Of a stretch of 64,000 bases of DNA, positions 7,226-50,668 are shown in pieces (within the stretch, counting starts at the first letter, position 1; each line of letters starts with the position of its first letter). The notes beneath the pieces were generated by a model, which was given only the letters and a program-made list of their open reading frames with translations, was not told where the DNA came from and did not search any database. Location: the NCBI RefSeq assembly GCF_029076445.1, contig NZ_JARESG010000001.1, positions 1 to 64,000 of the forward strand. The letters are read 5' to 3'. Source of the DNA: Pseudarthrobacter naphthalenicus. GTDB taxonomy: Bacteria; Actinomycetota; Actinomycetes; Actinomycetales; Micrococcaceae. The position numbers were made by a program, and so were the translations under genes.

Positions 7226-8608
7226 ATGACGGCAGCAATCCAGGTCGGCGCCACCCAGCGCTCATCCAAAGACCTCATCAGGACAGCAGTATCCGGCTGG
7301 CTCGGAACAGCCATGGAGTATATGGACTTCCAGCTCTACTCGCTGGCAGCAGCCATCATCTTCCCCAAAATCTTCTTCCCCAACTTCGACCCCGTCGTGG
7401 GACTGCTGGTCGCTTTCATCACCTATGGCGTCGGCTTCCTGGCCCGCCCGGTCGGCGCCTGGTTCTTCGGACGGATGGGCGACCGCGTGGGCCGCAAGAA
7501 GGTCCTGGTGATCACCATCATGATGATGGGGATATCCACGATGCTCATCGGGTTCCTGCCCGGCTACGCCCAGATCGGGCTCGCAGCGCCGATCCTGCTC
7601 GTGGTCCTGCGCCTGGCCCAGGGCTTCGGCGCCGGCGCCGAACTTTCCGGCGCGTCAGTCATGCTGGCTGAATACGCGCCGCCGAAGAAGCGCGGCCTGA
7701 TCGCTTCATTCGTCTGCCTCGGCACCAACTCCGGCACGCTGCTGGCCTCCGGCCTGTGGGTCCTGCTGACACTGCTGCCGGAGGAAGCGCTCATGAGCTG
7801 GGGCTGGCGCCTGCCGTTCATCGCCAGCATCGGCATCACCCTCTACGCGCTGTGGATGCGCCGCAACCTGAAGGAAAGCCCCGTTTTCGAGGCCACCCGG
7901 GAGTTGGACGCCGCCGACGCCGCTGCTGCCGCCGCCTTCGCGGCGAACTCCACCACCGTCGGACAGTCTGCAGTTGGCGCGCCCACCGCCGCCAAGTCCA
8001 AGCGCAAAGGCAAGGCCTTCTTCCTGGCGATGGCCCTGCGGATCGGCGAATCCGGCAACTCGGCCATGATCCAGACCTTCCTCATCGGCTACATCGTGAC
8101 CGGCCTGAGCATGGACAAGAGCGTGGGAACGTTCGCTCTGCTGATCGGCTCGTTCCTCGGTTTCGCCACGGTCCCGCTCGCCGGCTGGCTTTCCGACAAG
8201 GTGGGGCGCCGCGCCATGTACCGCGCACTGTCCGGCTTCCAGATGCTCTTCGCCATCCCGGCCCTGCTGATGATGCAGACCCGCGATCCGCTGCTGGTCT
8301 CACTGGCCCTGATCATCGGCCTCTCCATCTCCGTGCTCGGCATGTTCTCGGTCCAGTCTGCCTATGTGAACGAACTCTTCGGCTCCCGCAACCGCTACAC
8401 CCAGCTGGCTTTGGCCAAGGAAATCGGCGGCGTGCTCTCGGGCGGACTGGCCCCCATCATCGCTGCAGGCCTGCTGGCCCTGTTCACCAACTCCTGGTGG
8501 CCCGTCGCCGGAATGATGGTCCTCTACTCAGCCATCGCCTTCGTGGCCACATTCCTCGCCCCCGAAACCAAGGGACGGGACCTGACCCTCGTGGAGGACG
8601 CAGTATGA
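7226..8608 (+). CDS. MFS transporter, metabolite:H+ symporter type
   Basis: Twelve-helix secondary transporter of 460 residues. The MHS-subfamily loop after helix 2 is present (GRMGDRVGRKKVLV, near residues 87-100), and a second copy (GWLSDKVGRRAMYR) follows in the C-terminal half. A hydrophilic Ala- and Lys-rich loop of about 45 residues separates the two six-helix bundles. The gene overlaps idnD by four bases (ATGA) and is preceded by an operator-bearing promoter. Uptake of L-idonate or another sugar acid is a reasonable inference from context; the substrate is not encoded in a motif I can read. RBS AGAGGGG precedes the ATG. Confidence 0.9.
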   Translation: MTAAIQVGATQRSSKDLIRTAVSGWLGTAMEYMDFQLYSLAAAIIFPKIFFPNFDPVVGLLVAFITYGVGFLARPVGAWFFGRMGDRVGRKKVLVITIMMMGISTMLIGFLPGYAQIGLAAPILLVVLRLAQGFGAGAELSGASVMLAEYAPPKKRGLIASFVCLGTNSGTLLASGLWVLLTLLPEEALMSWGWRLPFIASIGITLYALWMRRNLKESPVFEATRELDAADAAAAAAFAANSTTVGQSAVGAPTAAKSKRKGKAFFLAMALRIGESGNSAMIQTFLIGYIVTGLSMDKSVGTFALLIGSFLGFATVPLAGWLSDKVGRRAMYRALSGFQMLFAIPALLMMQTRDPLLVSLALIIGLSISVLGMFSVQSAYVNELFGSRNRYTQLALAKEIGGVLSGGLAPIIAAGLLALFTNSWWPVAGMMVLYSAIAFVATFLAPETKGRDLTLVEDAV

Positions 8609-9621
8609 AAGCAGTAGTGGTCCATTCCGCCGGAGACCTGCGTCTTGAGGATCGTCCCGACCCGGAGTGCCCGGCCGGCTCGGTGATTATCGACGTCGAA
8701 TACGGCGGAATCTGCGGCTCGGACCTGCACTACGTCAGCCATGGCGCTTCCGGACTCAGCATCCTGGCAGACCCCATGGTGCTCGGACACGAGGTGGCCG
8801 GCCGGATCTCCAGGCTCGGCGAGGGGGTGGCGGACTTCGCAGTTGGCGATGCCGTGACGGTCCACCCCGCCGTGTTCTGCGGTGAATGCGCGGACTGCCT
8901 GGCCGGCCGCACCAACCTGTGCCCGCAGGTCACCTACTACGGCAGTGCCGCGCACCGGCCCCACACAGACGGTGCCTTCGCATCGCGGAAGGCCGTCCCG
9001 GCTAGGCAGCTTCGGCGGTTGCCTGCGGGCGTCAGCACACGCCATGCCGCCGTCGCGGAACCGCTCGCCGTGGCGATCCACGCGGTGGGCCGGGCAGGCA
9101 GCCTGGCCGGCAAGGACGTCCTGGTCAACGGTGCCGGGCCCATCGGTGCCTTGGTGGTGGCGGCAGCCTGCCGTGCCGGTGCTGCCTCCGTCGTGGCCAG
9201 CGACCTGTCCGAAACATCCTTGGCGATCGCGAAGCGCATGGGGGCCGACCGTGTGGTGCTGGTGGGTTCCGGTGCCCGGCTCCCTGACGTGGACGTGGCG
9301 TTCGAGGCCTCAGGCGCCCCCGGCGCCCTGGGCGGCGTCCTGGCGTCCGTACGCCGTGGCGGCACCGTGGTCCAGGTGGGCAACCTGCCCGCCGGGCCGG
9401 TGACCACCGAGCTTGCCGCGCTGGTCTTCCGTGAGATTGACTACCGCGGAACCTTCCGCTTTGCGGACGAACTGGACGATGCCCTTGCCTACCTGGCCGA
9501 CGGGCTGGACGTGGAACCTCTGCTGACCCACACATTCGACGCCGGCGACGTCTCCGAGGCGTTTGCGGTGGCGTCGGACCGGGGGACCGGCTCGTCGAAA
9601 GTCCTCCTGAGGTTTGTCTGA
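8605..9621 (+). CDS. idnD: L-idonate 5-dehydrogenase (zinc-dependent)
   Basis: Medium-chain zinc dehydrogenase of 338 residues that would oxidise L-idonate to 5-ketogluconate. The catalytic zinc site is CGSDLH with GHE (GHEVAG), the structural zinc site is CGECADCLAGRTNLC, and the nucleotide fold is GAGPIGALV. The motif with HADGAF-like spacing (HTDGAF) and overall alignment fit IdnD better than general alcohol dehydrogenases, though other polyol specificities remain possible. The ATG overlaps the stop of the transporter gene. Twelve bases separate it from menG, which may share the transcript. Confidence 0.82.
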   Translation: MKAVVVHSAGDLRLEDRPDPECPAGSVIIDVEYGGICGSDLHYVSHGASGLSILADPMVLGHEVAGRISRLGEGVADFAVGDAVTVHPAVFCGECADCLAGRTNLCPQVTYYGSAAHRPHTDGAFASRKAVPARQLRRLPAGVSTRHAAVAEPLAVAIHAVGRAGSLAGKDVLVNGAGPIGALVVAAACRAGAASVVASDLSETSLAIAKRMGADRVVLVGSGARLPDVDVAFEASGAPGALGGVLASVRRGGTVVQVGNLPAGPVTTELAALVFREIDYRGTFRFADELDDALAYLADGLDVEPLLTHTFDAGDVSEAFAVASDRGTGSSKVLLRFV

Positions 9622-40453: not shown

Positions 40454-41836
40454 ATGACTACCACCGCACATGACATCGTCTTCCGCCTGGAACAGAAGCG
40501 CCGTGTCCAGGCCGACTTTCCGGGCCCCAAATCCATCGCCCTGACCGAACGCCGCCGGGCCGTGGTTGCCGCCGGCGTCGCCTCGAGCGTCCCGGTCTAT
40601 GTGGCCGATGCCGACGGCGGAATCATCCACGACGTGGACGGGAACTCCTTCATCGACCTCGGCTCGGGCATCGCCGTGACCAGCGTTGGCGCGTCGGATC
40701 CCGCCGTGGTGGGGGCCGTGAAAGAAGCGGTGGAACACTTCACCCACACCTGTTTCATGATCACCCCGTACGAAAGCTATGTTGCCCTCGCCGAACAGCT
40801 GAACCGGCTGACCCCCGGCGAGCATGAGAAGCGCACCGTACTCTTCAACTCCGGCGCGGAGGCAGTGGAGAACGCCGTGAAGGTGGCCCGCATCGCCACG
40901 GGGCGTGACGCCGTCGTCGCCTTTGACCACGCCTACCACGGCCGCACCAACCTGACCATGGCGCTGACGGCCAAGGCCATGCCGTACAAGTCGGGGCCCG
41001 GCGGGAGCTTTGGCCCGTTCGCGCCCGAGATCTACCGCATGCCCATGAGTTACCCGTACCGCGAGGAAAACCCGGAGCTCACCGGCGCCGAGGCCGCCCA
41101 GCGCGCCATCACCATGATTGAAAAGCAGATCGGTGCGGACCTGGTGGCGGCGGTCATCATCGAACCGATCCAGGGCGAGGGCGGCTTCATTGTCCCGGCC
41201 GAGGGCTTCCTGCCGGCCCTGGCCGCCTGGGCCCGGGACAAGGGCATCGTCCTCATCGCCGACGAGGTCCAGTCCGGATTCTGCCGCACCGGTGAATGGT
41301 TCGCCGTCAACCACGAAGGCGTGGTCCCGGACATCATCACCATGGCCAAGGGCATCGCCGGCGGCATGCCGCTCTCCGCCATCACCGGCCGCGCCGACCT
41401 GCTCGACGCCGTCCACGCGGGGGGCCTGGGCGGAACGTACGGCGGAAACCCGGTGGCGTGCGCGGCGGCGCTGGCTGCGATCGGTTCCATGGAGGAGTAC
41501 AACCTGGCCGGGCGGGCCCGGCATATCGAGGAACTGGCTACCGGCCGGCTGCAGGCCCTGCAGGAAGAACTGGCCGGCGCCGGAAAGGCCGTCGTGGGTG
41601 ATGTCCGGGGCCGCGGTGCGATGCTGGCAATCGAACTGGTCCACGCCGGTTCGAAGGATCCCAACCCTGAGCTGACCAAAACCGTGGCAGCGGCCTGCCT
41701 GAAGGAGGGTGTCATCATCCTCACCTGCGGCACGTACGGGAACGTCATCCGCCTGCTGCCCCCGCTGGTGATCAGCGACGAGCTCCTGATCGACGGCTTG
41801 GATGTCCTGGCCGGTGCCATCAGGGCGAACGCCTAG
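40454..41836 (+). CDS. gabT: 4-aminobutyrate--2-oxoglutarate transaminase
   Basis: PLP-dependent class III aminotransferase of 460 residues converting GABA and 2-oxoglutarate to succinic semialdehyde and glutamate. The PLP Lys is K299 in MAKGIAGG; other motifs are FNSGAEAVENAVKVAR, the AFDHAYHGRTN loop and IADEVQSGFCRTG. Start ATG at 40,454 follows GAAAGAGATACCC. Co-transcribed with the aldehyde dehydrogenase; no gabD lies next to it, so succinic semialdehyde is oxidised by a gene elsewhere. A terminator follows. Confidence 0.94.
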   Translation: MTTTAHDIVFRLEQKRRVQADFPGPKSIALTERRRAVVAAGVASSVPVYVADADGGIIHDVDGNSFIDLGSGIAVTSVGASDPAVVGAVKEAVEHFTHTCFMITPYESYVALAEQLNRLTPGEHEKRTVLFNSGAEAVENAVKVARIATGRDAVVAFDHAYHGRTNLTMALTAKAMPYKSGPGGSFGPFAPEIYRMPMSYPYREENPELTGAEAAQRAITMIEKQIGADLVAAVIIEPIQGEGGFIVPAEGFLPALAAWARDKGIVLIADEVQSGFCRTGEWFAVNHEGVVPDIITMAKGIAGGMPLSAITGRADLLDAVHAGGLGGTYGGNPVACAAALAAIGSMEEYNLAGRARHIEELATGRLQALQEELAGAGKAVVGDVRGRGAMLAIELVHAGSKDPNPELTKTVAAACLKEGVIILTCGTYGNVIRLLPPLVISDELLIDGLDVLAGAIRANA

Positions 41837-41864
41837 CGCAGCAAGCCCGCACCTAAGAGTGCGG

Positions 41865-41905
41865 GAGAAGGCAGCACCTCCGGGCGTCCGGGGTGCTGCC
41901 TTCTC
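41865..41905 (+). terminator. Terminator after gabT
   Basis: GAGAAGGCAGCACC pairs with GGTGCTGCCTTCTC (stem closed around CTCCGGGCGTCCGG), followed by GTTGT. A shorter CCCGCAC...GTGCGGG hairpin lies directly before it. Confidence 0.82.
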
Positions 41906-42439
41906 GTTGTCCTGGCGGCTTCCTCTGGCGGCTTCCACTGGGGGCTACCTAACGTTCATTGCGGGGAGGTACCCAGTACCCCTGCCTTCTGGGCTGCCAC
42001 CTAATTCCCGACGTTAACCTGGCCCCTTCCGTAAGTACCCCCAAGAATCTTTTCGAGTACCGACTACTCGTGTTTGGCCTCCTCAGCGCTACGTAACTTG
42101 GATTTACCAATGGGCCGGGAATACTGCTCCTGGAAGGCCCCGCTTCAGAGACTCGTCATGAAACCCCTCAATAGGTATCGACACCCCGGAGCCTAGATGG
42201 GGAGCGTCGCGGCACTGCCCGCCCGATCCGTTGCCTGCCGGTTTCAGTAAGCGGAACCCCGTTCCCGCTCCTGCCGTCTCAGCCGCCGTCCACGGACAGC
42301 GCGGTCCGCCTGCGTCTGATGCGTGCAGTGGCACGTACCGAGGGTACTTCGAGCCCGGCTTGACTACGCCCAGGGGCGGAAGCAACCCCGCCCACGGCCA
42401 ATGACAACATCTTGATCCTGCTCGAGACAGGGAAATGCA
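41906..42439 (+). other. Gene-free leader region of the polysaccharide operon
   Basis: Some 530 bases between the gabT terminator and the first frame of the polysaccharide operon hold no convincing gene. Seen are an AT-rich patch near 42,035-42,115 that could hold the promoter, GTACCGACTACTCG and other short repeats of GTACC/GGTAC, and GC-rich blocks with many short inverted segments (GGAACCCCGTTCCC near 42,256; GTACCGAGGGTAC near 42,335). I could not fit it to a c-di-GMP, c-di-AMP or cobalamin riboswitch. A long structured 5' leader or distal promoter is likely. Confidence 0.4.
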
Positions 42440-42529
42440 ATGGCGCATGTCTTCACAGAAACCGAGGATCGGGCCGGCGGCAGGGCCGCTGGGGCCTGCA
42501 GGTTTGCAGCAGCGGAGAGCCTCCAATGA
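42440..42529 (+). CDS. Possible 29-residue leader peptide of the polysaccharide operon
   Basis: ATG at 42,440 has AGGGA nine bases upstream and opens a 29-codon frame (MAHVFTETEDRAGG...ESLQ). Its TGA overlaps the ATG of the next gene (ATGA at 42,526-42,529). Good ribosome-site spacing and the stop/start overlap suggest it is translated and couples ribosomes into the operon. The residues are not rich in one amino acid, so classical attenuation is unlikely. It may also be chance. Confidence 0.4.
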   Translation: MAHVFTETEDRAGGRAAGACRFAAAESLQ

Positions 42530-42876
42530 CGCCCCTCCAAAGCGTCTCACTGCCTGCCCAGGCGACCTTCGGCCGGGACGGCGCGTTGTTTGAGGGGCTG
42601 CTTGGCTTCGTGTCACAGCTGAGCGTGGTGCTATGGGGCCTGGTGCTGCTCACCGTGGTGGTGCGCTTCGTGGGCATCGGGCTCTATCGGCGTGGAGCCC
42701 GCCGACGTGCCGCCCGCATGGCTCTTGTCCAGGCCGTGCCGCCGAGCGACCCCGCTCCGGCTGCCGCGTCAACCACCACGGCCACTGCGGAGGTGGTCCA
42801 GCCGGTCACCGTCCAGGTGCCGCCCGCGCTCGCTTCCAATTCCACGGAGCCACCGGCATGGACATCCCCCTCGTGA
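42526..42876 (+). CDS. Small single-span membrane protein of the polysaccharide operon
   Basis: A 116-residue protein. Residues about 27-50 are one hydrophobic helix (FVSQLSVVLWGLVLLTVVVRF), followed by RRGARRRAAR, so the N-terminus is outside and the Ala/Pro/Thr-rich C-terminal tail inside. The position as first full gene before a processive glycosyltransferase recalls small accessory subunits such as PgaD, but there is no sequence proof. ATG 42,526 follows GGAGAGCC. It overlaps the glycosyltransferase gene by 19 bases. Confidence 0.7.
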   Translation: MTPLQSVSLPAQATFGRDGALFEGLLGFVSQLSVVLWGLVLLTVVVRFVGIGLYRRGARRRAARMALVQAVPPSDPAPAAASTTTATAEVVQPVTVQVPPALASNSTEPPAWTSPS

Positions 42877-44195
42877 TCTTTTGGTTGTTCGCCGGCGTCA
42901 GCATCCTCTACGTCGTGCACTTCGGCTTTTACCTGGTAGGCGCCAACTTCTATGACGTTTGGCAGCAGCGCAGGAGGGGGGTGAAAGCCGTCCGGCTCCC
43001 CGTGGAGTACGAGGCGGAGTGCGCAGCCACGGCAACATGGACCTGCCGAGCGCTTCCCGAAGTGCCCGGATTGGTCTCCATCATCATTGCCGCCCATAAC
43101 GAGGAGGCGGTGATCGTCCGGACTCTTGACTCGATCCGGCGCAGCACCTACCGCTCGATCGAAACCATCGTCGCCGATGACGCGTCCACCGACCTCACAG
43201 GCCGGCTGGTCCGCGACTACCAGGTGCGCCACCCCGAAATGAACCTGCGGATCGTGCGGATGCATAAGAACGTCGGCAAGGGCGGAGCGTTGAACGTGGT
43301 CCTTCGCCGCCTCGCGCGCGGCCAGTTCGTGATGACGCTGGACGCCGATTCGATCATCGAGCCCGACTCCATTTTCAATGCGCTGTCCTACTTCGATGAT
43401 CCATACGTGGCCGGTGTGGCCGCCAATGTGCAGATCCTGGAAGAGTCGACGGCGCTCGGCATCCTGCAGCGGTTCGAGCACATGATCGGCTACCGCTCGA
43501 AGAAGCTCTATTCGCTGCTGAACTGCGAGTTCGTGGTGGGAGGAGTGGCTTCCACTTATCGGATGCGCGTCCTGCGCAAGGTCGGCTTTTACGACACTGA
43601 CACCGTGACGGAGGACATCGGCCTGAGCGCCAAGGTCACCAGCCTGGGCAACCGGCGCTTCCGCATGGTCTACGGCGCTGACATCGTTGCGAAGACCGAG
43701 GGCGTACTCACGCTCCGTGCCCTGGCCAAGCAGCGTTACCGGTGGAAGTACGGCAGCATCCAGAACCTCATCAAGTATCGCGCCATGATCTTCAACCCGA
43801 GTCGACGCTACAGCGGCACTTTGGCGTACTACCGGATGCCGATGGCGGTGTTCAGCGAGTTCACGCTGCTCGTCTCGCCCCTGGCCTGGACGTATGCGGT
43901 GTACTGGTCGCTGGTCACTAAGACGCCCACCCTGCTACTCGGTGCCTACGCGACCATCACGGCCTACACACTGCTGACTGTCTGGTTGGACGAGAACCTG
44001 ACCACGCGGGAACGCATTCGGCTGTCCTGTTACGCGCCGACGGCCTACTTCCTTTTCTACATCATGGACTTGGTTCAGCTGACGGCCGCAGTGGGCTGCA
44101 TCGTGCGCTCGCGGGGCCTGTTCCGGCGTCCCGAGATCAACACCTGGCAGTCGCCGCCGCGGGCGGGCAGCGTGCTGGTGGTGGCTCGTGCGTAG
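42858..44195 (+). CDS. Processive family 2 glycosyltransferase (polysaccharide synthase)
   Basis: Membrane synthase of 445 residues of the PgaC/hyaluronan/cellulose synthase type. One N-terminal span (about 4-28) is followed by the GT-A domain: IIAAHNEE (76-83), ADDAST (106-111), LDADS (161-165, DxD metal site), TEDIGL (251-256, catalytic Asp) and QRYRW (282-286, the Q/RxxRW polymer-binding motif). Three or four spans follow (about 330-430) and form the export channel. No c-di-GMP PilZ domain is present. It polymerises a beta-linked sugar, possibly N-acetylglucosamine given the deacetylases that follow. The overlaps with both neighbours point to one transcript. Confidence 0.9.
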   Translation: MDIPLVIFWLFAGVSILYVVHFGFYLVGANFYDVWQQRRRGVKAVRLPVEYEAECAATATWTCRALPEVPGLVSIIIAAHNEEAVIVRTLDSIRRSTYRSIETIVADDASTDLTGRLVRDYQVRHPEMNLRIVRMHKNVGKGGALNVVLRRLARGQFVMTLDADSIIEPDSIFNALSYFDDPYVAGVAANVQILEESTALGILQRFEHMIGYRSKKLYSLLNCEFVVGGVASTYRMRVLRKVGFYDTDTVTEDIGLSAKVTSLGNRRFRMVYGADIVAKTEGVLTLRALAKQRYRWKYGSIQNLIKYRAMIFNPSRRYSGTLAYYRMPMAVFSEFTLLVSPLAWTYAVYWSLVTKTPTLLLGAYATITAYTLLTVWLDENLTTRERIRLSCYAPTAYFLFYIMDLVQLTAAVGCIVRSRGLFRRPEINTWQSPPRAGSVLVVARA

Positions 44196-46032
44196 GCGCC
44201 GGTGGTTTCTCCGCGTGCTGCTCAATCCCCTTGTAGTTATCTCGATTGTGGTCGTCCTGCTGGCGGCCGGGTGGCTGCTCTATACCGGCGGGAAGAGCAG
44301 CCTCTCCCAGGCCCGGCCCGGCGCGAACCTGTTTCCCACGCTCCTTGCGACCGCAGCCGGAACTCCGGCGGCGGCGGACCCCTCAGCGCCCGCCAGCCCG
44401 GCCAGCCCCGCGGGCGGCTGGAACGTCCGGCACAGCGGGAATGCCCGGACCTCGCTGGAGCTGGTCAAGGGACAGATGACCAGTCAGGCGCTGGAACTCG
44501 ATATTAGTGAGTACTCCTCCGGCGACGTTGCGCTGACGAGCCCACGGGTCAGTGTGGAACGCAGCAAGACCTACCTGTTCAAGGCGTTCATCAGCAGCGA
44601 CGAGGACTTCAGGCTACTGGCCCGCAGGTACCACGCCGACGGCAGCACCACCTTGGAGCAGCTGCGAAACCCTCTCGAACGGCCGGGCGATACCACGTTC
44701 ACGGTCAGCGACGCGTTCAACAGCGGGGATTCGATCACCGCGGTTGAGTACGTCTTGCGACTTTCAGCCAAGGGCAGCCTCCGGGTGGAGGGCGCCTACG
44801 TCGAGGCGGCGGACGACGTCCGGGTGGCCGGCCCTGCCGCGACGATGGCGGCCGCCCCTGCCGGAACGACGACGGCGGCGCCCAACCTCATCCCCAACCC
44901 CAAGCTGGCCATCCCCCCGCCGGGTACACCGGACCCATGGTCCCCGTACAGCTCAGGTGTATCCACTGTGAAGTCCGGACGGGGTGAGGACAAAAACGGC
45001 ACCTTCCTGTGGACAAGTGTCGCCAACTACCAGAACGGCGAGGCGAAGTGGCAGTACGATCCGATTCCTGTCACCGCCGACCGGTACTTCGAGTTCGGTG
45101 CCACCTACCAGTCCGAGCGCGACGTGGACGTGGTGGCGGAGTTCGAGCTCGCGGCAGGCGGGCGCGTGTTCAAGAACCTGGAGACGGTGCCTCCGGCGGG
45201 GGAGTGGACGACGATCAAGGAGTCATTCCAAGTCCCCGCCGGGGCAAATGCGGCAATGGTCACCCTCATTTCGCACGGGGAAGGCACCACCGGCGTCCGT
45301 GATTTTTCCCTGACCGACACCACCAAACCAGGACCTCTGCGTTGGGATCGGCCCATGGTCTCGATCACGTTTGACGACGGTTGGCAGTCCATCTATGACC
45401 GCGCCCTGCCTTTGTTGAACCAGCACGGCTTCCGGTCCACCCAATACGTCAATGCCAGCTCCATCGAGACGCCGAACTTCATGACTGCCGCCGAGGTGCA
45501 GCAGATGCACGACGCCGGGCATGAGTTCGCCGCGCACAGCTACGAACACGTCGATCTCACCTCGATCAGCGCTGACCGGTTGGATGAGCAGTTGCGAAAG
45601 AGTGAGGAGGCGCTGGCCGATGCCGGACTAAGCACTGACAATCTGGCAACCCCGTACGGGCGGTCCGATCCCCAGGTCGACTGGTATGCGAGCAAGTACT
45701 TCGACATCGTGCGCGGGACGGACGACGGAATCAACACCCGGCAAAACCTCAACCCACACGACCTGAAGGTGTTCTACGTCACCGACCAAACCACGCCGGA
45801 GGCCCTGACCGAAGCACTTGCGGAGACGTCCCGGTTGAACGGCTGGCTCATCCTCGTCTACCACCAGATCGCAACCCCTGAATCCACCGGCACTCAGGAA
45901 ACCGGAACCATCGCGGCGGACCGGAGCACCATCACCAGCGATGTCCTCGACACTCAGTTGCAGATCATCGACCAAAGCCGCATTCAAGTCCTGCCCGTGA
46001 CGCAGGCATTCAAGCAGTTGCAGGGTCAGTGA
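44188..46032 (+). CDS. Membrane-anchored polysaccharide deacetylase with N-terminal sugar-binding-like domains
   Basis: A 614-residue CE4 protein starting at GTG 44,188, eight bases inside the synthase gene. A basic start and one hydrophobic segment (about 13-32) anchor it. Two beta-rich domains resembling carbohydrate-binding modules (about 75-212 and 232-376) come before the NodB domain (about 388-600). TFDDG is at 394-398, the metal His pair AHSYEH at 449-454 and the PYG motif at 489-491. It likely removes acetyl groups from the nascent chain outside the membrane, as PgaB and IcaB do. Substrate inferred. Confidence 0.85.
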   Translation: MRRRRWFLRVLLNPLVVISIVVVLLAAGWLLYTGGKSSLSQARPGANLFPTLLATAAGTPAAADPSAPASPASPAGGWNVRHSGNARTSLELVKGQMTSQALELDISEYSSGDVALTSPRVSVERSKTYLFKAFISSDEDFRLLARRYHADGSTTLEQLRNPLERPGDTTFTVSDAFNSGDSITAVEYVLRLSAKGSLRVEGAYVEAADDVRVAGPAATMAAAPAGTTTAAPNLIPNPKLAIPPPGTPDPWSPYSSGVSTVKSGRGEDKNGTFLWTSVANYQNGEAKWQYDPIPVTADRYFEFGATYQSERDVDVVAEFELAAGGRVFKNLETVPPAGEWTTIKESFQVPAGANAAMVTLISHGEGTTGVRDFSLTDTTKPGPLRWDRPMVSITFDDGWQSIYDRALPLLNQHGFRSTQYVNASSIETPNFMTAAEVQQMHDAGHEFAAHSYEHVDLTSISADRLDEQLRKSEEALADAGLSTDNLATPYGRSDPQVDWYASKYFDIVRGTDDGINTRQNLNPHDLKVFYVTDQTTPEALTEALAETSRLNGWLILVYHQIATPESTGTQETGTIAADRSTITSDVLDTQLQIIDQSRIQVLPVTQAFKQLQGQ

Positions 46033-46091
46033 TCACCATTCGGCTGTGTCCACTTGGCGCCGTCGGACATCCGAAAAGAACGGAGAATCTC

Positions 46092-47876
46092 ATGAGCAGA
46101 GTCAGATCCGGCTGGGCACGCGGGCGTGCCCGGCTTGCGGCCATCGGGGCGGTGGGGGCCGTGGCCACCGCACTGCTGTCCCCCATGACCGCGAACGCCG
46201 CCATGGAAAACCCTGCCCCGACTCCTATGGTGTCCTTCACCTTCGATGACGGTATGGCCAGTGCGCTCACCCAGGCGGCACCCACGCTGCAGAAGTACGG
46301 GCTGACCGGCACCAACTATGTGATCACGGATTGCGTCGGCATGACAGAAGTGCCGAATACCTGCCGGGCCGGTGCGGAGGTTCCACATATGACGTGGGCT
46401 CAGATCGCGCAGTTGCAGAACGCCTACGGCTGGGAAATCGGATCGCACACCGTCGATCACCAGTGCCTGGTGAGTGTAGGTAACGATTGCCAAGCCACCA
46501 AGCTGACGGCCGCCGAGGTGGACGCCGAGTTGGCAGACAGCAGGGCCGCGCTCAAGGCCAATGGCTTCAACGCCACCGCGTTCGCCCCGCCGTACGGCGA
46601 CTACGACATGTCGGCCGTCGCCCAGGTGGCCAAATATTACAGCTCCATGCGCGGCTTCGCCGATACAGGCAACAACGTCTGGCCGCTCGGCGATTACCTG
46701 CTCCGGGACGTCCCCGTCCAGGAGATCACCACACCGGTGGCCGCTCTGAAGGCCCAGGTGGACGCGGCGATCGCGAATAAGCAATGGGTCGTCTTTACCT
46801 TCCATGACATCAGGCCGGGTCCGAGCCAAGTTCCGGATGATTACCAGTACGGCACGGCTGAGCTTGACGAACTGGCGGCGTACGTGAAGACCAAGGTGAC
46901 CGCCGGTCAGATCAAGAACGTCAACGTCAGCAAGGGCCTGGTGAACGGCACCCCTAACAAGATGCCGAACCCCACGTTCAACAACGGCCTCGGGGATGGC
47001 TGGCGGACCGACGCGCCGTCAACGATCACGGCCGACGCCGCCAACAACGGCAGCTTCCCCGACGCTGCCCGGTCCGTGAAGCTGGTCTCGGGTACTGCCA
47101 CGGGTCACTTGTTCTCGCCCATCGTTCCCCTGACACCGAGGACGAACTACATGTTCAAGGCCTTCCTCAATGTCGCTGCGATCACCACGGGTGAGGTGGG
47201 GTTCTACGTGGACGAATACAACGCGGCCGGACAGTGGATCTCCGGGCAGTTCCGCAAGCGGGAAAATTCACGGTGGGTGGAGTCGATGAACTTCACCTAC
47301 ACGCCGAGCTCGACCGATGTGGCTTCGGCAAGCCTCCAGATCTGGGTCATCGGCACCGGCATCACTGCTTATGTGGACAACGTGCAGATGCTGGCGATCG
47401 GCGCGGATGCCACCCCGCCGGCAGCGTCCAACCTCCTCGCCAACGGCACGTTTGACGCCGGCATCAGCTCGGGCTGGACAACAGACTCCGCAACCACCAT
47501 CGCGGCAGACGCGGCGAACCACGGTAGCCCGGCCAACCCGGTGAACTCGGTGAAGATGACAGCCACCACGGAGAACAAGCATCTGCTCTCCCCGCAGGTC
47601 GCGGTGACGGCCGGTAACTACAGCATCGCCGGCTACCTCAACGTCGCCGCACGAACCAGCGGGGAGGTGGGCTTCTACATTGACGAGTACAACGCGGCCG
47701 GGCAGTGGATCTCCGGGCAATACAAGCTCGGCGTGAATGCCGCCGGCGTGACCAATGTCGACCTGACGTACTCGCCTAGCACCACCGCCGTCGCGAAGGC
47801 GCGCCTGCAGGTTATCGTCCCAGGCAACTCGGGACTGCAGGGGTACTTCGACGACGTCCGCTGGACCAGGTCCTGA
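46092..47876 (+). CDS. Secreted polysaccharide deacetylase with two C-terminal repeat domains
   Basis: A 594-residue CE4 protein. A Sec signal peptide ends near residue 36 (TANA). The NodB domain comes first: TFDDG (50-54), SHTVDH (118-123) and APPYG. Then two beta-sandwich-like repeats follow (about 285-435 and 440-594), which share an almost identical block EVGFYxDEYNAAGQWISGQ at 157-residue spacing. They probably bind the polymer or the wall. The domain order is the reverse of the deacetylase before it. ATG at 46,092 follows a GGAGA ribosome site; 59 bases separate it from the previous gene. Confidence 0.85.
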   Translation: MSRVRSGWARGRARLAAIGAVGAVATALLSPMTANAAMENPAPTPMVSFTFDDGMASALTQAAPTLQKYGLTGTNYVITDCVGMTEVPNTCRAGAEVPHMTWAQIAQLQNAYGWEIGSHTVDHQCLVSVGNDCQATKLTAAEVDAELADSRAALKANGFNATAFAPPYGDYDMSAVAQVAKYYSSMRGFADTGNNVWPLGDYLLRDVPVQEITTPVAALKAQVDAAIANKQWVVFTFHDIRPGPSQVPDDYQYGTAELDELAAYVKTKVTAGQIKNVNVSKGLVNGTPNKMPNPTFNNGLGDGWRTDAPSTITADAANNGSFPDAARSVKLVSGTATGHLFSPIVPLTPRTNYMFKAFLNVAAITTGEVGFYVDEYNAAGQWISGQFRKRENSRWVESMNFTYTPSSTDVASASLQIWVIGTGITAYVDNVQMLAIGADATPPAASNLLANGTFDAGISSGWTTDSATTIAADAANHGSPANPVNSVKMTATTENKHLLSPQVAVTAGNYSIAGYLNVAARTSGEVGFYIDEYNAAGQWISGQYKLGVNAAGVTNVDLTYSPSTTAVAKARLQVIVPGNSGLQGYFDDVRWTRS

Positions 47877-47896
47877 CCGCGAGGGAAGAGGACAGG

Positions 47897-49579
47897 ATGG
47901 CCGGACGCGCGCGCACAGTGCTGGTGGTGCTGGCGTCCGGCCTTCTTGTCATCCTCGGCGGCTGCTCCTCACCCCAACCCGATGTGACAATTGACCTGCT
48001 GCGCGAGAACTGGAAGGACGTCACGGGGGTAACGGCCGGCGGCGACGGCCTGCAGGTCACCGCCTCCGCCCGGAGCATCGTCGGGCAGGACGGCAGGGGA
48101 GGCCAGCCGGACCCGCCCCTCAATCTGGCCGGCACGCATCTGATGGTCGGCGGGGACTTCACGCTGAGCGCGACGTTCGCCGATATGACAGCTGACGCGT
48201 CCTGGGCGCTGTACGACAAGCCGCCCGTGATCGCGGACGAGTTCCGCGTCGAACCGGCGGGCCTGCGGCTCACACTCCAGGGCAAGGAACTGGACATCGC
48301 CGTCTTCGACGGCACACAGAACAAAGACCTGGCCCGGCCGGTCCCCATGCACGACGAACGGGTGACGCTGAACAACCCGGAAGCGCCGCTCACCGTGCAC
48401 CGGTCCGGAGACACCCTGACCGTCGCCAGCGGCGGGGAGACCCTCACGTCGCTTGCCCTCGGAAAGGTGTTCTCCTCGGGGCGTCTTTGGCTCGGATTCT
48501 CGAGCGACTCCGGAGGCTTCGACGTCACCTCGCTGACGGCGGCTGCGCCCCGTAGCGCCGGCTTGCGCACATCAGGGGCCGCAGCCGCCGACGTCTGGCA
48601 ATCGGAGGACGGCCTGCAGGCACTGGCGGCCAAAACCAGGCCGGACTTGCGGATCGGCGCGGCCGTGGCACTGGGCCCCCTGAGCAGCGACGAGGACTAC
48701 GCGCGGGTGCTGGTGGGCAACTTTGGTTCCATCACGCCGGAGAACGCGATGAAACCCCAGTTCCTTTCCCCGAGGCAGGGCGTTTACACCTTCGAGGAGG
48801 CGGACGCGATCATCGCGATGGCGCAAAGCAAGGGCATGATCGTGCACGGACATACCATTGCGTTCACCGAGGCGATGCCGCGCTGGATGCGGGAACTGCC
48901 CAGCGGCACGGACGCAGAGCGCAAGTCCAGCGCCGCCGCCCTCCTCGACTACGTCACCACCGTGGTGACGCACTTCAAGGGACGGCTTGACTCGCTGGAC
49001 GTCGTCAACGAACCGTTCGATGTGGACCAAGGAACCAGCTTCCAGCAGAACATCTGGTACCGCGTCTTCGGATCCGGGTACCCTGCGGTGGTCTCCAAAG
49101 CCGTGTACGCCGCTGATCCGGCCGTCAAGCAGTTCATCAACGAGAACGGGGCCGACGTACCGGGTCGCCGCCAGGACGCCCTGCGCAAGCTGGCCTCGGA
49201 CACCAATGCCCAGGGCGGCCACCTCTACGGTGTCGGCCTCCAGGCACACGTCTATGACATCGGGACGGACGCCATCTCCGCGGGGGACCTCAGCAAGACG
49301 CTCGACGCCTTCGATGCCGCCGGCCTCCGCGTGCGCATCTCGGAGAACGACGTCACGGATGACCAAGGGACAGACACGCAGGCGCAGCAATACGCCACGG
49401 TACTGGCGGGCTGCCTGCGCTCGCGTGCCTGCGTCTCCTACACCACCTGGGGCGTGGACGACCGTTACGACTGGAGCATCGACCACGACGGCAACCTGCG
49501 GCAGGGCCACGACTTCCTGTTTCATGACGGGCAGCCCACGCCCGCGTACGACGCGATGAGGCAGGTTCTGGGCGGCTGA
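47897..49579 (+). CDS. GH10-family lipoprotein glycoside hydrolase
   Basis: A 560-residue predicted lipoprotein (LGGC lipobox, Cys23). Residues 30-220 form a beta-rich, LamG/DUF1080-like domain; 235-558 form a GH10 barrel. The acid/base is Glu372 (VVNEPF), the nucleophile Glu483 (RISENDV). The HGHT segment (317-320) lacks the following Trp and His of xylanases (usually HTLVWHSQ; here HTIAFTEA), so xylan may not be the substrate. In the operon it is the last gene, after synthase and deacetylases, and is likely to trim or release the polymer. Confidence 0.85.
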   Translation: MAGRARTVLVVLASGLLVILGGCSSPQPDVTIDLLRENWKDVTGVTAGGDGLQVTASARSIVGQDGRGGQPDPPLNLAGTHLMVGGDFTLSATFADMTADASWALYDKPPVIADEFRVEPAGLRLTLQGKELDIAVFDGTQNKDLARPVPMHDERVTLNNPEAPLTVHRSGDTLTVASGGETLTSLALGKVFSSGRLWLGFSSDSGGFDVTSLTAAAPRSAGLRTSGAAAADVWQSEDGLQALAAKTRPDLRIGAAVALGPLSSDEDYARVLVGNFGSITPENAMKPQFLSPRQGVYTFEEADAIIAMAQSKGMIVHGHTIAFTEAMPRWMRELPSGTDAERKSSAAALLDYVTTVVTHFKGRLDSLDVVNEPFDVDQGTSFQQNIWYRVFGSGYPAVVSKAVYAADPAVKQFINENGADVPGRRQDALRKLASDTNAQGGHLYGVGLQAHVYDIGTDAISAGDLSKTLDAFDAAGLRVRISENDVTDDQGTDTQAQQYATVLAGCLRSRACVSYTTWGVDDRYDWSIDHDGNLRQGHDFLFHDGQPTPAYDAMRQVLGG

Positions 49580-49633
49580 CCGCCGCACCGTCAGTTCACC
49601 GCGTTGGCCTTGCCTGGGCGCGGCCGGTCAACG

Positions 49634-50668
49634 TTATGAGGCTTCATTGAGTCTTGCCCGCTTCCTCGCCGTCGAGTTCTTCCCCGCTGTGCGAAGCATG
49701 TCCACGGTCAGGACCAGCAGGGCCAGCCAGACCACGCCGAAACCGATCCAGCGGTCGGTGGTCATGGCCTCCTGGAAGATCACCAGCGCCACCACGAACT
49801 GGAGCATGGGCGCCACGTACTGCAGCAGCCCGATGGTGGTCAGCGGAAGCCGGCGGGCCGAGGCGCCGAAGAACAGCAGCGGCACGGCGGTGAGCACGCC
49901 GGACGCCGCCAGGAGCCAGAAGTGACCGGGACCCTGGGTGGCCAGAGTGGCCGTGCCGGTCGCGCCGAGGACCACCATGGTGACTCCGGCCAGGGGTGCG
50001 AGCACCATGGTTTCGACGCTGAGGCTTGTCACCGCATCCACTTTGGGGCCAACCCGGTTCTTCACGAACCCGTACAGGCCGAAGCTGAAGGCAAGCGTCA
50101 GGGCGATCCACGGCAGTTTGCCGTAGCTCACCGTCAGCACCGCCACGGCAACAAAACCGATTCCGACGGCGGCCCACTGCAGGGGCCGCAGCTTCTCCTT
50201 GAGGACAATGACGCCCAGGAGGACCGAGACAAGGGGGTTGATGAAGTAGCCCAGCGAGGCTTCAACAGCCTGCCCGGTGGTCACGCCGTACGTGTACGTC
50301 AGCCAGTTCACGGCAATGAGGGCACCGGCAATGGCCAGGGGGCCGAAAACCGAGCGGTCACGGAAGGCGGTGGCCAGTGTGGGCCAGGACCGGGTGACGG
50401 TGATCAGCAGGGCGCAGAAAAGCAGCGACCACACCACCCGGTTGGCGACGATCTCCACCGGTCCGGCGGGCAGGAGCGCAATGAAGTACAGCGGAAGCAG
50501 CCCCCAGAGCCCGTAGGCGCCGAAGCCGAACAGGATTCCCGCCGTCGTCTCTTTGTCCACGGCCTTCGGCCCTGCACCCTGCGGCCCTGCACCCTGTTTC
50601 CCCGCAGGCTTGACGGCGGTGGCTTTGGCGGCTGGGGTGGGACCGTGGGGAGTAGGCACGTTTCCCAT
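49634..50668 (-). CDS. rarD: EamA/RarD-family transporter
   Basis: A 344-residue membrane protein with ten predicted spans in two EamA repeats. AYGLWGLLPLYFIALLP, NRVVWSLLF and SLGYFINPLVSVLLGV match RarD, a poorly characterised permease group. A 40-residue hydrophilic N-terminal tail (Pro/Lys/Ala/Gly) is unusual. The start is uncertain: ATG 50,668 is used; ATG 50,704 is an alternative that lies nearer AAGG. It is divergent from the topoisomerase gene. Its stop converges on the GH10 gene after 54 bases. Confidence 0.85.
   Translation of the reverse strand: MGNVPTPHGPTPAAKATAVKPAGKQGAGPQGAGPKAVDKETTAGILFGFGAYGLWGLLPLYFIALLPAGPVEIVANRVVWSLLFCALLITVTRSWPTLATAFRDRSVFGPLAIAGALIAVNWLTYTYGVTTGQAVEASLGYFINPLVSVLLGVIVLKEKLRPLQWAAVGIGFVAVAVLTVSYGKLPWIALTLAFSFGLYGFVKNRVGPKVDAVTSLSVETMVLAPLAGVTMVVLGATGTATLATQGPGHFWLLAASGVLTAVPLLFFGASARRLPLTTIGLLQYVAPMLQFVVALVIFQEAMTTDRWIGFGVVWLALLVLTVDMLRTAGKNSTARKRARLNEAS

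Follow-up and report, generated by a model that had tools for sequence, protein, structure and literature searches.

A putative exopolysaccharide operon of Pseudarthrobacter naphthalenicus combining a GT2 synthase and two CE4 deacetylases with a GH10 lipoprotein of altered proximal pocket

The first 64,000 nucleotides of contig NZ_JARESG010000001.1 of Pseudarthrobacter naphthalenicus, hereafter the window, include five closely packed genes, all on the + strand and spanning nucleotides 42526-49579, that code for a small membrane protein, a GT2 membrane glycosyltransferase, two CE4 deacetylases named here CE4a and CE4b, and a GH10 lipoprotein. We consider it probable, at roughly 0.75, that these genes specify a synthase-dependent exopolysaccharide or wall-bound polysaccharide system with its own GH10 enzyme, which would be adapted to a hexose or amino-sugar polymer and not to plant xylan. 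A membrane GT2 with the QxxRW motif, modifying enzymes predicted to be extracytoplasmic and a hydrolase are found in one conserved cluster, and the GH10 pocket differs from that of ordinary members of the family, which speaks against a role on plant xylan.

An initial annotation, made from the sequence alone, had described an operon with a QRYRW-bearing GT2, two CE4 proteins of opposite domain order and a GH10 lipoprotein, and open reading frame (ORF), Pfam and motif analyses agree with it; of the five to six genes that it allowed for, five stand and a sixth does not, nucleotide 42440, where it began, being no gene start, with a conserved small ORF beginning at 42526. The spacings between the genes are, in order, -19, -8, -4 (taken from a GTG codon at nucleotide 46029) and +20 bases. 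The GT2 is a 445-amino acid protein of the processive type (nucleotides 42858-44195, + strand; PF00535, 99.1 bits) with hydrophobic segments close to both termini. Its QRYRW motif occupies residues 292-296 (nucleotides 43731-43745), and Q292, R293, R295 and W296 are invariant in 25 sequences, three from Saccharibacteria included. CE4a (44188-46032, + strand) includes a transmembrane anchor with a hydrophobic segment at residues 10-28, a CBM_4_9-like region and a C-terminal CE4 domain (PF01522, 84.0 bits, residues 388-503). CE4b (46092-47876, + strand) has the mirrored arrangement, with a signal peptide, an N-terminal CE4 domain (PF01522, 71.2 bits, residues 62-202) and CBM_4_9-like repeats. 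Both deacetylases are above the PF01522 gathering score of 23.1 and have intact metal-site motifs (D/H/H) in the window. Searched separately, the N-terminal part of CE4a and the C-terminal half of CE4b matched CBM_4_9 at 28.2 bits and, in two stretches, 33.0 bits, respectively. The CE4b reading frame is open from GTG 46029; its start is probably ATG 46092, as this codon results in a normal signal peptide, and in three relatives the nearest start is also an ATG, giving 597 residues. The last gene (47897-49579, + strand) codes for a lipoprotein that includes a lipobox with a nearly invariant Cys23, an N-terminal beta domain at about residues 30-230, for which no Pfam match was found at E≤1, and a GH10 barrel at about residues 237-560 (PF00331, 198.6 bits against a cut-off of 22.1), the single PF00331 match in this genome. 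Its AlphaFold model, with a predicted local distance difference test (pLDDT) score of 82.3, matched GH10-fold structures over residues 235-560 approximately, with Z values of 36.5-39.9 for the 50 listed. The ratios of nonsynonymous to synonymous substitution rates (dN/dS) for GT2, CE4a, CE4b and GH10, taken against two relatives, were 0.12-0.23, which indicates purifying selection on all four.

A scan of an 84,980-species collection with two short peptide patterns identified 27 loci, a lower bound. Twenty-two of them (L058-L079) are actinobacterial loci with an intact GT2 and are the denominator used here; a remnant in A. liuii (L083), three loci in candidate Saccharibacteria metagenome-assembled genomes (MAGs; L080-L082) and one in a Prevotella MAG (L084) were counted apart, and the last was discarded as an operon locus and taken as an unrelated GT2 (32% over 94 residues). 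A gene was scored as present when its best tblastn segment exceeded 40% identity. The GT2, the small protein and the GH10 occur together in 22/22 loci, the GH10 of L074 being truncated at the end of its contig, while CE4a and CE4b are each present in 21. In the aligned CE4a rows the FDDG motif is found in 22/22 and HxxxH in 21/22, the Blastococcus row having HxxxD; in those of CE4b, HxxxH is found in 22/22 and FDD in 21/22, the remaining row being gapped. Locus L069 shows frame breaks in both deacetylase genes, and the main CE4b segment of the Kocuria locus L073 covers the protein only to residue 478. The loci are distributed among the Micrococcaceae (Arthrobacter, Pseudarthrobacter, Kocuria and one further member), Microbacteriaceae (Cryobacterium), Propionibacteriaceae (Arachnia) and Geodermatophilaceae (Geodermatophilus and Blastococcus). 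That the synthase, the deacetylases and the GH10 belong together as a unit, as first proposed, is thus borne out by the retention of GT2 and GH10 at every locus, and the outcome that had been named as speaking against the proposal, a gene order confined to close strains, was not what we found in these four families.

The 22 loci occupy at least seven chromosomal settings, as judged by reading of the flanks. ORFs were called in the flanks of 16 of the 27 loci, the others were compared by tblastn with the genes of the window, and the short contig L074 was given no setting. In the window the operon is preceded by a gabT-like aminotransferase gene (40454-41836) and followed by a rarD-like gene on the - strand, both named by reading; most Arthrobacter and Pseudarthrobacter loci likewise have the gabT-like gene upstream and usually the rarD-like gene downstream. 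The Cryobacterium operon is flanked by genes read as proS-like and ispG-like, A. echini and SX1312 have another site in common, and Kocuria, Arachnia, Geodermatophilus and Blastococcus have separate sites each. The recurrence of the order in different chromosomal settings indicates an association beyond what chance would give. Of 99 genomes, the one analysed here plus 98 relatives, ten have the GT2, this genome included; all ten belong to one genus and have a full-length GH10. Examination of 20 of the 51 same-genus genomes with no GT2 match located rarD directly behind gabT, at less than 200 bases, in nine, further off in five, and not within 1.5 kb in six; the empty gabT-rarD sites indicate that the operon occurs as a block or not at all. 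In A. liuii (L083, 10001-12222; also L032) an internal deletion extends from the GT2 start to the CE4b end and leaves the GH10 intact. This is the one same-genus genome with GH10 at the locus and no full GT2, and from its sequence it appears to be a natural synthase-minus strain. A plasmid-borne element was considered and set aside, as the GT2 had no match at E≤1e-60 among 72,556 plasmid records, and so was an anti-phage link, neither of the two proteins tested with PADLOC, the small protein and the GH10, having matched any family. No regulatory RNA matched Rfam up to E 0.1 in nucleotides 41500-50000. Between nucleotides 41800 and 49900 no sigma-70-like promoter was found, and terminator-like sites numbered 5, against 4.9 in shuffled sequences. 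Among open-licence papers we found no description of this operon.

What sets the operon GH10 apart is its proximal pocket, F323-T324-E325-A326 (nucleotides 48863-48874), at positions where ordinary GH10 enzymes mostly have W-H-x-Q, which we take to be W84, H85 and Q87 in Cex numbering. The catalytic residues are in place: E372 (49010-49012), the acid/base by homology, is conserved without exception in the 23 operon, 6 standalone and 34 control rows, and E483 (49343-49345), the nucleophile by homology, in the operon and standalone rows. The window and the copy in A. liuii are counted among the operon rows, from which L074 is excluded as truncated. All 23 have F at position 323, and position 326 is A in 22 and S in one, defining the pattern F-T/S/G-x-A/S. 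The controls, from the same genus, order or class, number 32 after L103, which is the window, and L102, an f37 copy, were taken out of the 34 rows; W is found in 30/32, Q in 28/32 and both in 27/32, a denominator that still holds five weak or odd rows without the Trp or Gln (L104, L105, L117, L118 and L121) and several near-copies. Accordingly, the Trp and Gln by which a GH10 xylanase can be recognized are lacking in the operon protein. Work by Andrews in 2000 is said to have assigned residue 87 of a related xylanase a part in discriminating glucose from xylose, and Cex was reportedly mutated by Notenboom in 1998 for the study of cellulose and xylan specificity. The structures matched by the GH10 model include, by their PDB titles, an engineered Streptomyces xylanase Q88A/R275A, and it seems that the operon clade naturally carries the change engineered in that enzyme. 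Judged from the alignment, the pocket change suggests a hexose-type substrate, whose sugars would bear a C6 group at the proximal subsites.

A tree was built with nine of the 23 operon rows and 26 of the 34 control rows, leaving out L017, L102, L103, L104, L105, L117, L118 and L121. In it the operon GH10 proteins, together with Saccharibacteria and f37 copies, split from the 26 ordinary GH10 proteins at 100/98 (midpoint root), with a long-branch warning that concerns the Saccharibacteria row among others. Six sampled genomes without this GT2 have standalone relatives that span the N-terminal domain and the barrel. No GT2 profile match was found at E≤1e-15 in four of them (G084, G173, G207 and G135); G215 and G290 gave GT2 matches only at 1e-33 to 1e-38, within longer proteins that by reading contain CE4-like regions and resemble two MatB-like proteins of the P. 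naphthalenicus genome described below. The close standalone copies L037, L039 and L040 share this F and A and fall within the operon clade, and for these reasons probably derive from operon copies; they may cut the polymer of other cells. The f37 copies L041, L042 and L043, from one genus with genomes of 7.6-7.9 Mb, are distant and fall outside the operon clade. They share the N-terminal domain and retain W, but the Gln is replaced by A and one of the cleft Trp residues by S; their genomes yielded no synthase of the operon type. A match to GH10 and the N-terminal domain in pieces, at 32-42% identity, was also noted in a genome from a different family (L044, G074 C237, about 8205-9440).

Relatives of part of the operon are found in the three candidate Saccharibacteria MAGs (contigs L080, L081, L082 and L145/L155). 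Their GT2 proteins are 47-51% identical over the alignment and retain the QRxRW residues. CE4b relatives were detected in every one of these MAGs: two have full-length copies (55-57%) and the third has fragments. This third MAG, of 0.8 Mb, also includes a full-length GH10 of 35% identity with the same F and A, which is placed on a long branch as the sister of the operon clade (97/90). One CE4b fragment lies on its GT2 contig, and the remaining CE4b pieces and the GH10 are on further contigs; the stretches read have a G+C content of 45.8-47.5%, and the GH10 contig includes housekeeping genes read as pyrE-, thrS- and miaA-like. No GH10 match was found in the other two MAGs at E≤0.001, and no CE4a in any of the three at E≤1e-30. 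A sortase-like gene directly precedes the GT2 in two of the three loci (by Pfam match in L082 and by similarity in L081). The co-occurrence may come from binning error, although the three MAGs agree for GT2 with CE4b.

The small protein (nucleotides 42526-42876, + strand; 116 amino acids, with GGAG upstream of the ORF) has a conserved core and a single strong hydrophobic segment at residues 34-52. It had no Pfam or NCBIfam match at E≤0.01 and none in PADLOC at E≤0.1. The authors of a study on the Streptomyces MatAB system propose, in the part of that report available to us, a synthase-partner role for MatA by analogy with IcaD (PMC5972031), and by comparison with MatA the small protein is a possible synthase partner. 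The GT2 structure model is of low confidence (pLDDT 64.7), and Foldseek searches with it returned an archaeal mannosyltransferase as the best match, followed by hyaluronan, cellulose and chitin synthases. The P. naphthalenicus genome codes for two separate MatB-like proteins, with an N-terminal CE4 and a C-terminal GT2 (L089 and L091; G000 C8 and C78). The L091 gene is followed by a lipoprotein-like ORF that matches GH18 weakly (23.1 bits, below the cut-off of 29.6), perhaps another pairing of a synthase with a hydrolase.

Comparison with curated families bears on the polymer that the operon may make. Among NCBIfam equivalogs the GT2 scored best with PgaC/IcaA, at 133.8 bits against a cut-off of 422.3, and reached 21.8 bits against 699.1 with CelA/BcsA; a cellulose assignment was set aside because the latter cut-off was not attained and no PilZ domain was seen among the Pfam hits of the operon at E≤0.01. 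For CE4b the scores were 34.6 bits with IcaB (cut-off 248.35) and 27.3 with PgaB (cut-off 321.9), for CE4a 21.4 and 22.4, and the best equivalog of both deacetylases was HfsH, far under its cut-off of 400. A poly-N-acetylglucosamine (PNAG) system of the Ica/MatAB type, with a GH10 in place of the usual hydrolase, would account for the PgaC/IcaA match, for the IcaB and PgaB matches of CE4b and for the small membrane protein that accompanies the synthase. We regard it as rather unlikely, as the scores are far under the curated cut-offs, for which a PNAG/Ica assignment was set aside, HfsH is the best CE4 equivalog, and the two MatB-like proteins may already fill that role in this organism. Ordinary GH10 enzymes, moreover, cleave beta-1,4 bonds and not beta-1,6 bonds. 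About equally improbable is a wall-linked secondary polymer or capsule, in place of a released matrix, to whose attachment the GH10 would contribute as a transglycosidase. The predicted lipid anchor with its nearly invariant Cys23 and the sortase-like genes of the Saccharibacteria loci are compatible with such a function, and retaining glycosidases can transglycosylate; on the other hand, no sortase or other anchoring gene is found among the five genes of the operon in the window.

A still less probable explanation makes the GH10 an ordinary xylanase, secreted to feed the cell on plant xylan, which lies beside an exopolysaccharide operon by history. The fold, both catalytic Glu residues and two cleft Trp residues are those of a xylanase, the closest solved structures are mostly xylanases, and standalone copies exist. 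Against this stand the co-location in 22/22 loci and about seven settings, the absence of the pocket Trp and Gln from 23/23 rows, the sister GH10 in a Saccharibacteria MAG, and the nesting of the close standalone copies within the operon clade.

Several observations nevertheless weigh against a dedicated synthase-deacetylase-hydrolase system. The operon GH10 may have xylanase activity, since the cleft residues W518 and W526 are retained, and activity on cellulosic substrates is also reported for some ordinary GH10 xylanases (PMC6408826), so that the pocket change would not be needed for a hexose substrate. The GH10 appears to be useful without the synthase, as G084, G173 and G207 have close standalone copies and no GT2 profile match at E≤1e-15. 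Neither deacetylase is strictly required, because the Arachnia genome gave no CE4a match and the Geodermatophilus genome no CE4b match, both at E≤1e-30, and a metal-site His of the Blastococcus CE4a is changed. In Saccharibacteria the GH10 is limited to one of three MAGs and is not on the GT2 contig, and the GT2 structure model is weak. Gene distances correlate, with Spearman coefficients of 0.48-0.76 over 19 loci, as would also be expected from plain co-inheritance. Finally, the operon is rare: in the class sample the GT2 was found in 2/394 genomes, this genome included, the further one having both GT2 and GH10, and in the phylum sample the GH10 was found in 3/396 at E≤1e-50, this genome and two of f37. 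Loci L058, L065, L066, L070 and L083 are apparently also present in the 99-genome and class samples, and the two sets are not additive.

The operon can be compared with several known systems. It has a GT2, a partner and CE4 proteins as do IcaADBC and PgaABCD, from which it differs in remaining below the NCBIfam equivalog cut-offs, and to our knowledge no GH10 belongs to those systems. Its GH10 shares the fold, the catalytic Glu residues and most cleft residues with the xylanases Cex and XynAS9, and differs in having F/T/A for W/H/Q, an N-terminal beta domain and a lipid anchor. The following comparisons rest on the available portions of the sources cited. MatAB of Streptomyces, which makes PNAG, likewise joins an actinobacterial GT2 and CE4 with a partner protein lacking known domains, whereas MatB unites GT2 and CE4 in one protein and the operon has a separate GT2, two CE4 proteins and a GH10; no hydrolase gene of the mat cluster is named in the portion available (PMC5972031). 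The clostridial ccsZABHI operon likewise equips a Gram-positive GT2 synthase with a glycoside hydrolase of its own, in this case a GH5, and differs by a PilZ-bearing cellulose synthase and proposed O-acetylation genes, with no CE4 pair or GH10 mentioned in that portion; its authors also refer to a gene neighbourhood in which a GH113 occurs with an epimerase and a CE4-like gene (PMC7710045). The Bacillus cereus Pel cluster is a Gram-positive synthase cluster with a deacetylase and a separate hydrolase, built from PelD/E/F/G and a PelA-type hydrolase in place of GT2 and GH10 (PMC7112168). Listeria pssA-E code for an exopolysaccharide system with a GT2 of the PgaC/BcsA kind and a putative glycosidase elsewhere in the genome, and differ in being linked to cyclic di-GMP and having a BcsB-like partner, no CE4 or GH10 being mentioned in the portion available (PMC4125290). 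GH10 and Arthrobacter appear nowhere in the main text of a survey of synthase operons (PMC7112194). The set of hydrolases that the initial annotation attributed to known systems was incomplete, given the GH5 of the clostridial cellulose operon (PMC7710045), and a Gram-positive counterpart without outer-membrane parts is not new in kind, given the Pel cluster (PMC7112168), since sets of synthase, deacetylase and hydrolase are known from Gram-positive bacteria (Pel, Ccs and, in part, MatAB). What is distinctive is the GH10 with its altered pocket, the mirrored CE4 pair and the likely reach into Saccharibacteria.

As to the chemistry of the polymer, which we infer from the enzymes, the action of CE4 proteins points to an N-acetylated, less likely an O-acetylated, sugar in the chain. 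The GT2, probably aided by the small protein, would polymerise an N-acetylated sugar activated with uridine diphosphate (UDP), alone or with a second sugar, and would pass the chain through its own membrane helices. From its domains and motifs, the membrane-anchored CE4a is expected to deacetylate the chain during its emergence; further deacetylation could be carried out by the secreted CE4b, whose binding modules would keep it on the polymer. The lipid-anchored GH10 would then cut the chain at deacetylated or hexose positions and may in this way set its length, clear misplaced chains or release matrix. In GH10 enzymes the 2-hydroxyl of the sugar at -1 makes close contacts with the protein, and cutting should therefore need a deacetylated or hexose unit at -1, which would couple the two activities. 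The replacement of Trp and Gln by Phe and Ala is expected to open the proximal pocket for a sugar with a C6 hydroxymethyl group, and this opening would make a beta-linked hexose or glucosamine polymer a more likely substrate than xylan.

A wider proposal, which we advance tentatively and hold to be possible though not favoured, is that this GH10 lineage left xylan and became the dedicated hydrolase of a beta-linked polymer so far undescribed, partly deacetylated and made of amino sugars or of mixed composition. The GT2, CE4b and GH10, variably with CE4a and the partner protein, would form a module found in soil actinobacteria and some Saccharibacteria, and stray GH10 enzymes would strip or eat the polymer of neighbours. 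The presence or absence of the operon at one junction, a natural synthase-deletion strain and the orphan hydrolases make these ideas easy to test. Members of the GH10 family are commonly annotated as xylanases, and a clade that trims a self-made polymer would, if true, correct such annotations, provide an enzyme with which to probe a surface polysaccharide of soil actinobacteria that is as yet uncharacterised, and serve as a test case for substrate change in a family of plant-biomass hydrolases.

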